64,000 nt of DNA from Collinsella ihumii (GTDB taxonomy: Bacteria > Actinomycetota > Coriobacteriia > Coriobacteriales > Coriobacteriaceae). The notes beneath the pieces were generated by a model that was given only the letters and a program-made list of their open reading frames with translations, was not told the DNA's origin and searched no databases. Of this stretch, positions 31,365 to 36,051 are shown piece by piece; the stretch's first letter is position 1; every line of letters begins with the position of its first letter. The translations under genes and the position numbers were made by a program. The stretch is taken from contig NZ_FCOU01000012.1 in assembly GCF_900046475.1 (NCBI RefSeq), forward strand, positions 131,924 to 195,923, in the 5' to 3' direction.

Positions 31365-31572
31365 GGAAATCCACGTGCATAATAACCCGTTCGAAGCAAA
31401 ACCCACCGAGGAGGTAGGCTGAGTTTGTCATTGTTTTTCGGTGCCCGCACCCCACAGGCGCCATACCCCTCGGCAAAGCCGCAGGATTCAACTGGGCAAA
31501 TGCTGAAGGGTGCGGCGCATGTGGAGGATCCGCACCGAAAAACAATGACAAACTCGGTATGCACGTTTTTCG
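31365..31572. repeat. Long palindromic element, family A, copy 2
   Basis: Perfect 24-bp arms (31421-31444, 31532-31555) beginning GAGTTTGTCATTG. The centre has ACCCCTCGGCAAAGCCGCAGG and CAACTGGGCAAATGCTG, as in copy 1 (7921-8112), in the opposite orientation. The flanks TAGGCTGAGTTTG and GCATACCGAGTTTG also match copy 1. It lies between convergent genes. Confidence 0.9.
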
Positions 31573-31611
31573 CCCCCGCAGGGGTGGTCGAGAGCGATCG
31601 ACCCCACTTCG

Positions 31612-32523
31612 CTACGCACCGCCCAGCGTGTGCATGGCGAGCGTGACCGCCAACACGTCGCCCGCAAGCGATGCGGAGATCTCCATGTCCATGGCGCGCG
31701 CCAGATTCGCCGCGACCGACAGGCCGAGGCCGCTCCCCTTGGCACCGCGCGACGAATCCGCCTGGTAGAACCGGTCGAACAACCGGTCGGCATCGATAGC
31801 CGCCGGGTCCGAGACGGCATTCGCGATGCTCAGGACCACGCGATCGCCCTCGCGACGCTCCTCAATCGTAGGCGCCGCCATCCCGTGGCGCAGCGCGTTC
31901 ACCACCAGATTCGTCAAGATGCGCGAAAGCGCCTCCCGATCCGCCTCGACCGTGACGGCCGCGTCGCCAAACGTGACGGCCGGCTCCCAGCCGCGCTCCT
32001 CGAAGGCGGGGTACTGCCCCAGCAGCACCTCTTCCACAAAGGGCTTGAGCGCCACCGGCTCCATCTTGAGCACAAGGTCGGGATCGGTCGACTTCGTATA
32101 GGCGAACAGCTGGTCGAGCAGCTCGGTCGTGGTGTCGATGCGGCTCGCAGCCGCCTCCAGATGCCGGGCGCGCGCCGCCGGGTCCTCCTCGTCGCATGCG
32201 AGCTGCAAATAGCCTTTCGCCCCCATGAGCGGCGTGCGGATGTCATGCGACAGCGCCGACAGGTCGCGCTGGAACTCTTGCTGACGGCGCATCGCCTCGA
32301 CATGCGCCTGAGCGCTGCGGTCGAGCTCCGCGTTGATGGCGTCGGCAAGATCGGTGACACCGGGCGCGCCGCCCGCCGCCACGCGCACGTTGCTCTCCCC
32401 CTCGCACCCGCGCAGGAAACGTGCGATGCGGTGCATCTCACCGAGATAGCGCACGCTCGCCAGCACCAAGCCCATGCCAAGGCCGAGCACGAGCAGCAGC
32501 AGGGAGATATTCTCCGTCTCCAT
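31612..32523 (-). CDS. Sensor histidine kinase of an antibiotic-responsive type locus
   Basis: 303 residues from the ATG at 32523 with AAAGGGG upstream. One or two N-terminal membrane helices (SLLLLVLGLGMGLVLASVRYL) with almost no extracellular loop, then a linker, H-box ALSHDIRTPLMGAKGYL, N-box NLVVNALRHG and G-box GAKGSGLGLSVAAN. Kinases with no sensor domain are typical of systems that sense through an ABC transporter, which fits the adjacent ABC genes and response regulator upstream. Confidence 0.92.
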   Translation of the reverse strand: METENISLLLLVLGLGMGLVLASVRYLGEMHRIARFLRGCEGESNVRVAAGGAPGVTDLADAINAELDRSAQAHVEAMRRQQEFQRDLSALSHDIRTPLMGAKGYLQLACDEEDPAARARHLEAAASRIDTTTELLDQLFAYTKSTDPDLVLKMEPVALKPFVEEVLLGQYPAFEERGWEPAVTFGDAAVTVEADREALSRILTNLVVNALRHGMAAPTIEERREGDRVVLSIANAVSDPAAIDADRLFDRFYQADSSRGAKGSGLGLSVAANLARAMDMEISASLAGDVLAVTLAMHTLGGA

Positions 32524-32644
32524 GGCATCCCCTTTCCCGTGGGTCCCGCCTCCTCGGGCGAGCGCCCGTTCCAGCTTACTTGAACGGCGGTGCGCAGGAG
32601 AGGCCGTTGCCCGCAAAACAGCCAGCGGACCGCTTTCGAAAGCT

Positions 32645-32845
32645 CAGTGGAGGCTCCGGCCCCAAGAATTGCCGAAAAATCGACGTTGTAGACGGCTCGT
32701 TTCCGGATGCCCCGAGAAACGCACTTCCCGCACAGGAGCTACCTGCGGAAACGCCGGCGCCGCAGGTGCCGTTTTGGGCAGGTCCGGATTTGGGCCGTCT
32801 ACAACGTCGATTTTTCGGCAATTATGCCGCTCGCAGCCTCCACTG
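32645..32845. repeat. Long palindromic element, family E
   Basis: Perfect 30-bp arms (32667-32696 and 32794-32823, containing GCCGAAAAATCGACG) around a 97-nt centre, with an additional outer pair CAGTGGAGGCT (32645-32655) and AGCCTCCACTG (32835-32845). It lies between the permease and the kinase genes, inside what should be one operon. Confidence 0.92.
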
Positions 32846-32909
32846 GACCCCGATCCACAGGTGTCCGCCACGGGGGCGGGCGCCTGCAGAATGAATTGGT
32901 CGGGTTTTC

Positions 32910-33788
32910 CTAGATATCGCGCTTGCGAGCGATGGCGAGCACGGCCGCGCTGGCGATGGCGATCCAGATGACGCCCGTGAGCAGCGCTTGGATACCCGGG
33001 TCGATGGTGAACGCCAGCGACGAAGGGCCCCAGATGTCGGCAGCCCGCATCCCGAACATCTGACCGCCGTCGGCCAGGTTCCCCAGCGACGTGGAGGGCA
33101 TCCACGCGACAAGCGTCTCGAGAGCGGGGCGAATGGGCTGCAGCACGCGCAGGATGCCGCCTGTGGAATACGCCAGTCCGCTCACCAGGCTCGCAACCAC
33201 CCCGAGGCTGAAGCAGAACGAGCAGATGTAGCTCATGGGGCTGACGCGCGTGGCATACGCGACGACGAGCGAGATCACCGCGAGCGCCCAGATGTTGATC
33301 CAGAATCCGACGAACCATCCCAGCAGCTCAACCGGGCTGTCAAACGTCGCGAACGTGTATCCGCCGATCCATGCGACCGCGGTGACGAGCACGATCTCGA
33401 GCAGCACCATGATGGCGGACAGCACGCCGGCGAACACCACCTTGCCGCCGAAGTACGAAAGCCTGCCGCCGCGAGCGCTCAGCACGCTGCGTGCGTAGTT
33501 GTTTTTGAGCTCCTGCAGCGCATGTTCGACCACCATGAAGCAGACGCAGAGCGGGACGATGCCGCCGCCCATGCTCGCAAGATACGCGGAGTACGAGGGG
33601 AAATCGGAATTGACCGGGTTTACTGTCCCCGGCGCGAGCGATTCGAAGAGCGAGCTCCTGACGAAGATCGTCATCGCCACGGTCATGGCGTACACGACGA
33701 GAAGTGACAGCCCGTACTGCCAGAAGCTGCCGCGCAGGCCGCGGACGCGCGTAATGCGGTAGAGGTCGGATTTGATGAGGTTCAGCAT
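32910..33788 (-). CDS. ABC-2 type transporter permease
   Basis: 292 residues with six predicted membrane segments, starting LIKSDLYRITRVRG, a common opening of BcrB/LanE-type permeases. Conserved polar positions between TM3 and TM4 are unremarkable. With the ATPase at 33.9-34.9 kb it should form an exporter that protects from or exports a peptide or lipid-targeting antibiotic. A small ORF sits between permease and ATPase. Confidence 0.88.
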   Translation of the reverse strand: MLNLIKSDLYRITRVRGLRGSFWQYGLSLLVVYAMTVAMTIFVRSSLFESLAPGTVNPVNSDFPSYSAYLASMGGGIVPLCVCFMVVEHALQELKNNYARSVLSARGGRLSYFGGKVVFAGVLSAIMVLLEIVLVTAVAWIGGYTFATFDSPVELLGWFVGFWINIWALAVISLVVAYATRVSPMSYICSFCFSLGVVASLVSGLAYSTGGILRVLQPIRPALETLVAWMPSTSLGNLADGGQMFGMRAADIWGPSSLAFTIDPGIQALLTGVIWIAIASAAVLAIARKRDI

Positions 33789-33792
33789 GGTT

Positions 33793-33864
33793 CTACCTTC
33801 CTTTGCGACGGGAGAACAGAGACGGAACGATTTCGAGCAGAAAGTCGATCAGGCAATCCAGCAT
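33793..33864 (-). CDS. 23-residue small ORF between ABC ATPase and permease
   Basis: The ORF encodes 23 residues beginning MLDCLIDFLLEIVPSLFSRR and ending KGR. The GGGGG box lies 5 bases before the ATG, and the start follows 4 bases after the ATPase stop. The peptide has an acidic, hydrophobic helix (DFLLEIVPSLF) and a basic tail, so it could lie on a membrane. No known family was recognised. Conserved spacing in an ABC operon suggests a real gene; confirmation needs homologues or mass spectrometry. Confidence 0.55.
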   Translation of the reverse strand: MLDCLIDFLLEIVPSLFSRRKGR

Positions 33865-33868
33865 CGCG

Positions 33869-34867
33869 CTACCCCCTGTTCCCTGCGGTCGTCCCGCCGT
33901 CCATAAGCTCGACGAAGTAGTCCTCGATGTCGCGCTCGAGCACCGTGAGCTCGAGCACCACCTGATCGGCGTCGTGCAGAACGCACGACACGTCCTCCAC
34001 CGAGGGCGCGCCCGACGCAGCCGGGTCGCTCGACGCCCCGCCGAACGAAGAGGCCGCCGAGCGCGCGCCGCCAGCGATCACGATCGACTGGTCGGGATCC
34101 ACGCGGAAGGTCGCGCCCGGCAGACGCTCCTCCAGAATCGCGAGCGCCCGCGCCGGATCCGCCGTCTTCACGCGGACCGAGCTGCCGCAGGCCGCATGCA
34201 GCTCCTCGTCGGTGAACTCGCGCACCATGTGACCGCCCGCGATGACACCGAACCGGGTGCACACGCGCATGAGCTGGTCGAGCACGTGGCTCGAGATCAC
34301 GATCGTCACGCCGCGCTCCTGGTTGAGCCGCACAAGCGCCCGTCGCAGGTCGCGCGTCGTCTCCGGGTCCATGCCGTTGAACGGCTCGTCGAGCAGCAGC
34401 AGGTCGGGCGAGCCCACAAGCGCGAGCGCGAGCCCCAGCCGCTGCTTCATGCCCTGCGAGAACTTCTTCGCCTTGCGCGGGCCGACTCCCTCGAGCCCCA
34501 CGAGCTGCAGCAGGTCGTCCACCTGCTCGTGCGGGCGGACGACGCCCATGGCGAGCGCCTTCATCATCATGTTCTCCGTCGCGGAGAAGTTCGGCAGCAC
34601 GCCGGGCTCCTCGATCAGGGCGCCGATGCGCGAAGGCGCTCCCGAGAAGCTCCCCGCCACGCGCGAGCGATCCTCGCCGAACAGCGCGAGCTGTCCGGCA
34701 CTCGGCGCGGCAAGCCCGGCGATCATCTTCATCGTCGTCGACTTGCCCGCGCCGTTTTTGCCCACGAAGCCGTAGATGTCCCCCGCGGCCACATGCATAT
34801 CCAGGCGGTCGACCGCGAACATCTTCCCGTAGCGCTTGGTGAGACCACGGATATCGATCACATTCAT
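33869..34867 (-). CDS. ABC transporter ATP-binding protein (BcrA/LanF-like)
   Basis: 332 residues. Walker A GKNGAGKST, Q-loop region IGALIEEPGVLPNFSATENM, signature FSQGMKQR, Walker B LLLLDEPFNGMD, and H-loop VISSHVLD. The C-terminal extension (about 215-332) includes a Ser/Ala-rich spacer and ends with ERDIEDYFVELM, as in BcrA-type subunits. The ATG at 34867 follows AGGAG. It is cotranscribed with the 23-residue ORF and the permease. Confidence 0.93.
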   Translation of the reverse strand: MNVIDIRGLTKRYGKMFAVDRLDMHVAAGDIYGFVGKNGAGKSTTMKMIAGLAAPSAGQLALFGEDRSRVAGSFSGAPSRIGALIEEPGVLPNFSATENMMMKALAMGVVRPHEQVDDLLQLVGLEGVGPRKAKKFSQGMKQRLGLALALVGSPDLLLLDEPFNGMDPETTRDLRRALVRLNQERGVTIVISSHVLDQLMRVCTRFGVIAGGHMVREFTDEELHAACGSSVRVKTADPARALAILEERLPGATFRVDPDQSIVIAGGARSAASSFGGASSDPAASGAPSVEDVSCVLHDADQVVLELTVLERDIEDYFVELMDGGTTAGNRG

Positions 34868-35005
34868 GGTTGCTCCTATCTCGTGCATCCTGCGGCAGCG
34901 GGCGTCTGCGCGTCGCCTTCTCCCCGCTGCTCATGCATGAGTATGGAAAACGACCTTTGAGCAAGTCTTTTCCAAGGTTTAAGAAAGGTTAAAGAAGCGC
35001 CCGTG

Positions 35006-35731
35006 TCAGGATTCCTGCAGCTTGAACCCCATGCCCCACACGGTCTTGATGTAGGCGTCGGTGCCCGTCGCGCGCAGCTTAGCGCGGATGTTCGACACAT
35101 GCACGTTCACCGTGTTGTCGTCGGCGGTGTACGGCTCGCCCCACGCCCGCTCGAACAGCTCCTGCTTGGAGAACACGCGGCGGGGGTGCTCCATCAGCGC
35201 CTGAAGGATGTTGAATTCGATGCGGGTGAGCTCGATTCCCCGCCCGTCCGCGGAAAACGTGCGCGCCTCGGGGTCGAGCTCCCATGCGCGGAAGCACAGC
35301 GTGGGGCCCGCGAACCGCGTGCCGTCACCGGCACCGTCGGATGCGGAAACGCCGCGATGGCGCAGCTGGACCTCGATGCGCGCGACGAGCTCGTCCAAGT
35401 CGAACGGCTTGGTGAGGTAGTCGTCCGCGCCGAGCTTGAGCAGGTCGATGCGGTCGGAGGCGGCCGTGCGCGCGGAGATCACGATGATGGGGACGCGCGC
35501 GTCGCGCTCGCGGATGAGCCCGACGAGCTCCTCGCCCGGCATGCCGGGAAGCATCAGGTCGGAGACCACGATGTCGAAGGGAAGCGCACCCTCGCCGCCC
35601 CCGATGAGCAGGCGAGCCTCGCTCCCGGAAAACGCCTGCGTGCAGGCCATACCGCGTCGCGCCAGGTGCGTGGCGACGATCTGATTGATATCGGCATCGT
35701 CCTCGACGATGAGCACGCGAACGCCCGGCAT
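35006..35731 (-). CDS. OmpR-family response regulator of the ABC/kinase locus
   Basis: 241 residues. Receiver domain with the acidic pair VEDDAD, phospho-acceptor VVSDLMLPGMPG and Lys in YLTKPF, then a winged-helix domain with FNILQALMEHPRRVFSKQELFERAWG and NTVNVHVSNIRAKLRATG. The ATG at 35731 is 6 bases after GAGGAG. It is followed by ATPase, small ORF, permease and the kinase on the same strand, a layout like lantibiotic or bacitracin defence loci. Confidence 0.94.
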   Translation of the reverse strand: MPGVRVLIVEDDADINQIVATHLARRGMACTQAFSGSEARLLIGGGEGALPFDIVVSDLMLPGMPGEELVGLIRERDARVPIIVISARTAASDRIDLLKLGADDYLTKPFDLDELVARIEVQLRHRGVSASDGAGDGTRFAGPTLCFRAWELDPEARTFSADGRGIELTRIEFNILQALMEHPRRVFSKQELFERAWGEPYTADDNTVNVHVSNIRAKLRATGTDAYIKTVWGMGFKLQES

Positions 35732-35843
35732 GTCCAACTCCTCGCAACGATTACGGCGATCCTTTCGCCCCATTGTGACGCAGACCGCGCCGTTTTGACA
35801 GCACCGATACGCCCACAAACCGAAAACCGGTACCCGCCGCGCA

Positions 35844-35909
35844 TGCAAATCGGGGGACGTACCTTCCGCGTGCAAAAATGCACGCGGAAGGTACGTCCCC
35901 CGATTTGCA
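35844..35909. repeat. 66-nt perfect palindrome, family B, copy 2
   Basis: 31-bp perfect arms with an AAAA loop (35844-35874, 35879-35909). They contain GGGGGACGTACCTTCCGCG. Relative to copy 1 both arms changed CTGCTG to CTTCCG together, keeping pairing. It lies in the divergent region upstream of the response regulator. Confidence 0.95.
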
Positions 35910-36051
35910 CTTCGGGCATCTGGCTGAACTTCCCCGTCATGAGCGCCATCGTGGGCGCGCTCCTAGCCGGAAAAACGTCCGTCCCCGCCCTCGCCGCCCA
36001 CGCGGCTGCGCTACGATACGTCAAGCAGGGCAATGGAAAAGGGGTGCCGCC

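Follow-up and report, generated by a model that had tools for sequence, protein, structure and literature searches.

The window, a stretch of 64,000 nucleotides from Collinsella ihumii, carries a cassette in which a response regulator, an ABC ATPase, a small ORF, an ABC-2 type permease and a histidine kinase follow one another, all on the minus strand (Table 1). The initial annotation had picked out the 23-codon ORF between ATPase and permease as gene-like and worth a check, and its account of the start, the stop, the GGGGG box and both 4-base gaps agrees exactly with the coordinates on the minus strand. The ATPase stop (33871-33869) is followed after 4 bases by the ATG at 33864, and after 23 codons the TAG (33795-33793) lies 4 bases before the permease ATG at 33788. 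The GGGGG box is 7 bases 5' of the small-ORF ATG and reads GGAGG in the closest relatives that carry the same form of the peptide (type A, described below; loci L037 and L040-L043).

Table 1. Genes and translation signals of the cassette, in positions of the window
Feature	Position	Strand	Basis or remark
Probable small gene, 23 aa, MLDCLIDFLLEIVPSLFSRRKGR, type A	33793..33864	minus	homologues in matching slot and selection
GGGGG Shine-Dalgarno-like box of the small gene, within the last ATPase codons	33872..33876	minus	sequence; GGAGG in closest relatives
Permease Shine-Dalgarno AAAGGAAGG, overlapping the final K-G-R codons of the small gene	33796..33804	minus	sequence
OmpR-type response regulator, ~241 aa	35006..35731	minus	also matched in relatives
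ABC ATPase, 332 aa from an ATG with AGGAG upstream	33869..34867	minus	longer ORF begins at 34888
ABC-2 type permease, 292 aa, NosY/PmtD-like fold	32910..33788	minus	AlphaFold2 model and fold searches
Histidine kinase, ~303 aa	31612..32523	minus	one N-terminal membrane stretch; matched in relatives

Genes of the cassette and the ATPase-permease spacer

The nearest named relative loci are those of Candidatus Collinsella stercoripullorum and C. tanakaei strains. All 17 of the Coriobacteriaceae loci L037-L053 gave a match to the regulator and 15 of them a match to the kinase; in the remaining two the contig stops shortly past the permease. The best curated family for the ATPase is TIGR03740, a lantibiotic-protection family (189 bits, under its cut-off of 309.75), and the same protein scores 124 bits against the PmtC model (under its cut-off of 375). 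The permease gave nothing above cut-off in Pfam (ABC2_membrane_4 at E 0.2) and no match at E ≤10 in NCBIfam, and a search of PDB sequences with the permease alignment returned one match, a spidroin at E 0.1. Its AlphaFold2 model (mean pLDDT 80.8, pTM 0.82) has an ABC-2 fold, for which Foldseek placed the PmtCD chain 6xjh_A first (E 4.3e-4) and gave a NosDFYL chain at E 9.0e-4; VIA-align 2 returned Z 18.0 for NosDFY 7o12_E (rmsd 4.0, 242 aligned) and Z 17.1 for PmtCD 6xjh_A (rmsd 3.6, 240 aligned). The matched NosDFY and PmtCD chains presumably correspond to NosY and PmtD, the membrane subunits. With their two Z scores within 1 of each other, the match indicates a generic fold. The kinase N-terminus, METENISLLLLVLGLGMGLVLASVRYLG, contains a single membrane stretch, and an external sensor domain is not evident on reading its sequence.

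The cassette resembles peptide-antibiotic protection modules. It shares with Cpr/Nis lantibiotic protection an ATPase that scores best with TIGR03740, an ABC-2 permease and an adjoining two-component system, and differs in having one permease rather than two different membrane subunits, an ATPase below the TIGR03740 cut-off and an extra small gene; the cassettes of C. tanakaei YIT 12063 and of genome G056 contain more than one permease. Two repeats were also observed in this region. A large imperfect inverted repeat (32645-32845, 99-base arms, 73% complementary) lies between the permease and kinase genes, and a perfect REP-like palindrome with 31-base arms and a 4-base loop occupies 35844-35909. 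The REP-like arm occurs in 58 copies in the same genome at ≤3 mismatches (30 forward, 28 reverse; none for the reversed control), frequently in facing pairs.

An ORF of 23 codons is shorter than gene callers usually report, and its existence alone is within chance: in 100,000 mononucleotide shuffles of the 80-base spacer, an ORF of at least 20 codons starting in the first 15 bases arose 1,427 times with ATG (1.4%) and 4,805 times with any start codon (4.8%). Conservation is what decides. Non-coding explanations for the spacer were also considered and set aside. A structured RNA gave no Rfam match (31500-36000), and the spacer folds more weakly than its shuffles (z +1.20), 178 of 200 of which fold at least as well. 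No promoter or terminator is listed within the spacer, the whole 4.5 kb containing no sigma-70-like promoter and two terminator-like sites. The small proteins themselves had no match at E ≤10 in Pfam (four tested) or NCBIfam (five tested), the type B profile (see below) had a single match at E 8 in a PDB sequence search, and none of the literature matches listed is a paper on this small gene. Global microbial small-protein catalogues (PMC11364881) may contain the sequence without a function.

Distribution and codon-level selection of the small ORF

A search of 65 Coriobacteriaceae genomes with the peptide recovered it in six, including the source genome, the other five copies being 78-91% identical. 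The permease was found in 31 of the 65 at E ≤1e-15, and profiles of the two forms of the small ORF (E ≤0.01) recovered type A in 11 family genomes and type B in 18 (profile A3), together 28. A recognisable small ORF lies directly upstream of the permease in 28 of the 31 permease-bearing genomes, with one of the 28 broken. In G026, G046 and G056, whose permeases are divergent, only unlike ORFs of 90, 79 and 47 aa are found there. The other 34 family genomes have no small ORF at E ≤0.01, once a different gene in G048 is set aside. The co-occurrence of small ORF and permease has a Fisher p of 2e-15, which for related genomes such as these is not a test on independent samples.

The type B form was searched with profile A3 in 395 genomes of the order, which may not take in every one of the 65 family genomes, and with an earlier profile, A2, in all 65. 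At E ≤0.01, A2 recovered 17 of the 18 type B genomes (G057 being at 0.028) together with G048 (0.005). The match in G048, which is without the permease, and weaker look-alikes belong to a different small gene near an argR-like gene, and G048 is absent from the A3 matches. This other small one-helix ORF, such as MIAAMHIALFALVLLLPIALIALLAYYYLHTRKR, is seen at positions ~1460-1560 of loci L159, L165, L166, L170 and L171; by eye, the argR-like gene precedes it in L159, L165, L166 and L170 at least, and a penicillin-binding-protein-like ORF on the opposite strand follows it in L159, L165 and L171 at least. A weak second type B match in G018 has no cassette gene adjoining and looks like a chance frame. 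At E ≤0.01, A3 matched 19 of the 395 genomes of the order, and its match outside the family (G385) is a fragment within a 428-aa frame. The type B profile matched 8 of 396 genomes in a sample of the phylum, the two outside the family falling inside 251-aa frames, and the type A profile matched 11 of 395 genomes of the order, all within Coriobacteriaceae.

The ATPase-permease spacer was read in 36 of 80 loci (L037-L072), 44 distant loci being left out. Either type of small ORF is present in 17 of 17 spacers from the Coriobacteriaceae loci L037-L053; in L055 it lies elsewhere in the operon. In all 18 remaining loci (L054 and L056-L072, from Eggerthellaceae, Atopobiaceae and one unplaced member of Coriobacteriales) there is no space for a small ORF, as the permease begins before the ATPase stop is complete and the two overlap (part read by eye). 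Because these neighbouring-family cassettes do without it, the small protein appears to be an addition made in Coriobacteriaceae and not part of the core of the system.

The initial annotation had also held that loss or frameshift of the ORF in close relatives with an intact operon would speak against a gene, and on this point the outcome is mixed. Type A is missing from G033 and G043, whose ATPases are 85 and 89% identical to that of the window, and a transmembrane form occupies the slot. A frameshift does occur, in the distant congener G031 (L199), where the small ORF has also lost its stop and the ATPase and permease are open. G031 is a natural loss of the small gene.

Codon comparisons were made in four small sets: close type A (five rows from five of six genomes, the G039 peptide being the same as that of G045), other type A (four rows, the second ORF of G055 omitted), type B (five rows) and type B of genus g5 (four rows), with the type B rows trimmed to 24 shared codons and with G043, G047, G053, G064, G042 and the long forms excluded. 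Summed over pairs, pN/pS was 0.19, 0.28, 0.37 and 0.60, respectively, the g5 value being the weakest, and change is concentrated at third codon positions. With all codons after the start included, none of 5,000 column shuffles in any set was as conserved in amino acids. Since the permease Shine-Dalgarno lies within the last codons of the small ORF, its terminal K-G-R is partly dictated by that signal. With the last four codons removed, pN/pS was 0.20, 0.30, 0.38 and 0.67, and 0, 0, 0 and 1 (g5) of 5,000 shuffles reached the observed conservation. As judged from these codon patterns, the small ORF is under purifying selection, and the 23 codons very probably constitute a real gene. The frequency of such ORFs in shuffled spacers leaves room for a frame kept open by GC-rich sequence and two ribosome-binding sites; conservation over several genera, codon-position bias and a constant position relative to the permease make this extremely improbable, and the codon-level selection results already contradict it.

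Two helix types in one slot and their tie to the permease

The small ORF takes two forms. By calculation, type A, found in the window and in peptides such as MLDLIMDALSAAIEIVFSPRKKGR, forms an amphipathic helix whose acidic face is narrow, which bears out the acidic hydrophobic helix with a basic end described initially. Its Eisenberg moment is 0.39-0.46 in five peptides, values reached by 0.001-0.003 of shuffles, and, amphipathic and with three acidic residues, it is a poor transmembrane helix by calculation. Type B, such as MIDIVINVAVIGALVYLLSSGRKGR, is a transmembrane helix that is hydrophobic throughout and ends in basic residues (moment 0.01-0.09 in seven sequences, six of type B and the 47-mer of G056). 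Aligned with hhalign, the type A and type B profiles gave a probability of 93.8 over 23 columns, and the type A profile matched the type B peptide of G064 at E 0.0017 for 100 sequences. A common origin of the two types is only suggested by these matches, the sequences being short and the K-G-R end partly a ribosome-binding site.

In the ATPase tree, in which 9 of 42 inner branches are weakly supported, type B occurs in the outer Coriobacteriaceae groups and type A is confined to one group of 16, where it is mixed with type B. Loci L038 and L040 have regulators, ATPases, permeases and kinases that are 91, 95, 92 and 95% identical, and one has type B and the other type A; G055 (L051, L183) has B then A in tandem. 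Loss of either member of an ancestral pair would fit this distribution, as would recombinational exchange, and the distribution suggests that types A and B can serve the same function. Upstream of permease 1 of G056, a 47-aa ORF (L215:2470-2613) has a terminal tail with weak likeness to type B (type B profile E 0.019) and matches the permease profile at E 4.9e-11 over residues 1-40 of the permease N-terminus. Derivation of the small ORF from the permease N-terminus was rejected, as this ORF is the sole case in its favour; the ordinary small peptides of the window, G064 and G042 gave no match to the permease profile.

The amphipathic form invites comparison with phenol-soluble modulins, which are of similar length to type A. 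On such a reading the 23-mer would be a substrate of the pump, acting outside the cell as a modulin, a bacteriocin or a signal for the adjoining two-component system. PmtABCD exports phenol-soluble modulins and human antimicrobial peptides (PMC9629497). Type A, a leaderless 23-24-mer, shares the amphipathic helix, the permease has a fold like that of PmtCD, its best Foldseek match, and the ATPase also scores, below cut-off, with the PmtC model, all of which makes export of a modulin-like peptide appealing in the case of type A. Type B suits this reading poorly: the leaderless amphipathic helix was calculated for all five type A peptides and for none of the six type B peptides, which occupy the same slot, nor for the G056 47-aa ORF. 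The permease fold being generic and the ATPase scoring higher with TIGR03740 than with PmtC further weaken the case, and here, unlike for phenol-soluble modulins, the pump operon itself contains the peptide gene, mostly as a single copy. Different peptide types in sister operons with permeases 92% and kinases 95% identical are unlike a signal matched to its receptor. Export of the peptide is thus quite unlikely, and less likely than a role as an accessory subunit. A more specific version, in which a self-exported modulin or signal is read by the adjoining two-component system and A and B are forms that lineages exchange, so far only in Coriobacteriaceae, is very doubtful.

The position of the small ORF is tied to the permease. 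The distance from its last sense codon to the permease start, stop included, is 5-8 bases in 24 of 28 genomes (including the broken copy of G031) and 39-149 bases in the four genus-g5 genomes; these four, G057, G058, G059 and G061, retain type B with its basic tail 36-146 bases from the permease, off its ribosome-binding site. In C. tanakaei YIT 12063 (L055, G042) the operon opens with the small ORF, MHPADAINIAIDLAIIAALAYLLFTSQKGR, which has a GGAGG of its own upstream and is followed by permease 1, the ATPase, permease 2 and the kinase; permease 2, which comes after the ATPase, has no similar small ORF. In G064 (L214:585-3807) a cassette of regulator, small ORF, permease and kinase is found without an ATPase, for which there was no match in a 9-kb stretch and none genome-wide at 1e-40 (genome completeness 95%). 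Judged by gene arrangement, the small protein tracks the permease, not the ATPase.

The short spacing, and the permease ribosome-binding site within the last codons of the small ORF, are also what would be expected of a mini-ORF that serves translational coupling, in which ribosomes that have completed the small ORF reinitiate at the permease and so determine the ATPase:permease ratio, the peptide itself being idle. Such coupling alone is insufficient because the operon-first, ATPase-less and off-ribosome-binding-site cases keep the small ORF, and the amino-acid conservation that persists when the last four codons are removed also counts against an idle peptide. As a full explanation it is unlikely, and translational coupling probably occurs besides a role of the peptide.

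A predicted accessory subunit of the exporter

The small ORF on balance probably encodes a one-helix membrane accessory subunit of the adjoining lantibiotic-protection-like ABC-2 exporter. Genome comparisons support a gene that is conserved, under purifying selection and tied to the permease, and we infer that the small protein is translated, resides at the membrane, contacts the permease and affects it. Its synthesis would keep step with that of the permease, whose start codon comes 4 bases past the stop of the small ORF and whose ribosome-binding site is contained in the end of that ORF. The protein would associate with the permease within or at the membrane. There it may stabilise the permease, set its substrate range, or relay its state to the kinase, which seems to be without a sensor domain; in BceS-type systems, the transporter supplies the signal to a kinase that has no sensor domain. 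The choice among these three effects is a guess, with stabilising or tuning a peptide-antibiotic exporter the most likely. The suggestion in the initial annotation of an immunity or regulatory peptide therefore holds in part: a regulatory or accessory role agrees with a protein that tracks the permease in a protection-module-like cassette, and nothing demonstrates immunity.

Several known small proteins offer parallels, drawn here by description rather than by sequence for VraH, CcmD, LucB and others. In Staphylococcus aureus, resistance to gallidermin requires VraH as well as VraDE, and the binding of VraH to VraD depends on the presence of VraE; the BceS-type kinase family is called intramembrane-sensing in the same account (PMC5786555). 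Like the protein predicted here, VraH is a small membrane protein with a basic C-terminus that accompanies an ABC transporter and a two-component system; its single hydrophobic helix with a positive C-terminus is matched by type B by calculation, type A having the basic end and an acidic amphipathic helix. VraH2, a duplicate listed downstream and probably part of that operon (PMC6291627), can be likened to the two small ORFs of G055. The systems differ in that VraE is a 10-helix permease with a large external domain (BceAB type) and the permease here is a 292-aa ABC-2 protein, and in that vraH lies 3' of the permease gene by locus-tag order and the small gene here lies 5' of it. The VraH motif YYKRREEKGK is absent by eye from the small peptides compared.

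CcmD, a subunit with one helix, interacts with CcmABC (PMC3884852), and it resembles the predicted protein as a single-helix subunit of an ABC complex with 6-helix membrane parts, its N-terminus outside and its C-terminus inside; it differs in its length of about 70 aa and its role in haem delivery. Modulation of their own transporter has been proposed for LucB and shown for AcrZ (PMC10710835). LucB, AcrZ, MgtS and MntS are similar as small proteins that tune transporters through an established or proposed binding, and differ in that LucB belongs to a lipid-uptake ABC transporter and AcrZ, MgtS and MntS to other transporter classes. An accessory subunit in the style of VraH or CcmD is thus predicted from genes alone, as a likeness of kind rather than as shown relatedness to either, and the small gene is best grouped with the transporter-associated small proteins of one helix, outside the VraH, CcmD and phenol-soluble modulin groups.

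If this assignment is right, the cassette would provide a compact test case for what one helix of 23-25 residues contributes to an ABC-2 exporter. It would also amount to a natural experiment, in which an amphipathic and a transmembrane helix appear to have been exchanged in one slot with the pump, regulator and kinase almost unchanged. The small gene, for which Pfam and NCBIfam gave no match, nevertheless stands beside the permease in 28 of the 31 genomes of this gut-bacterial family that carry the permease.
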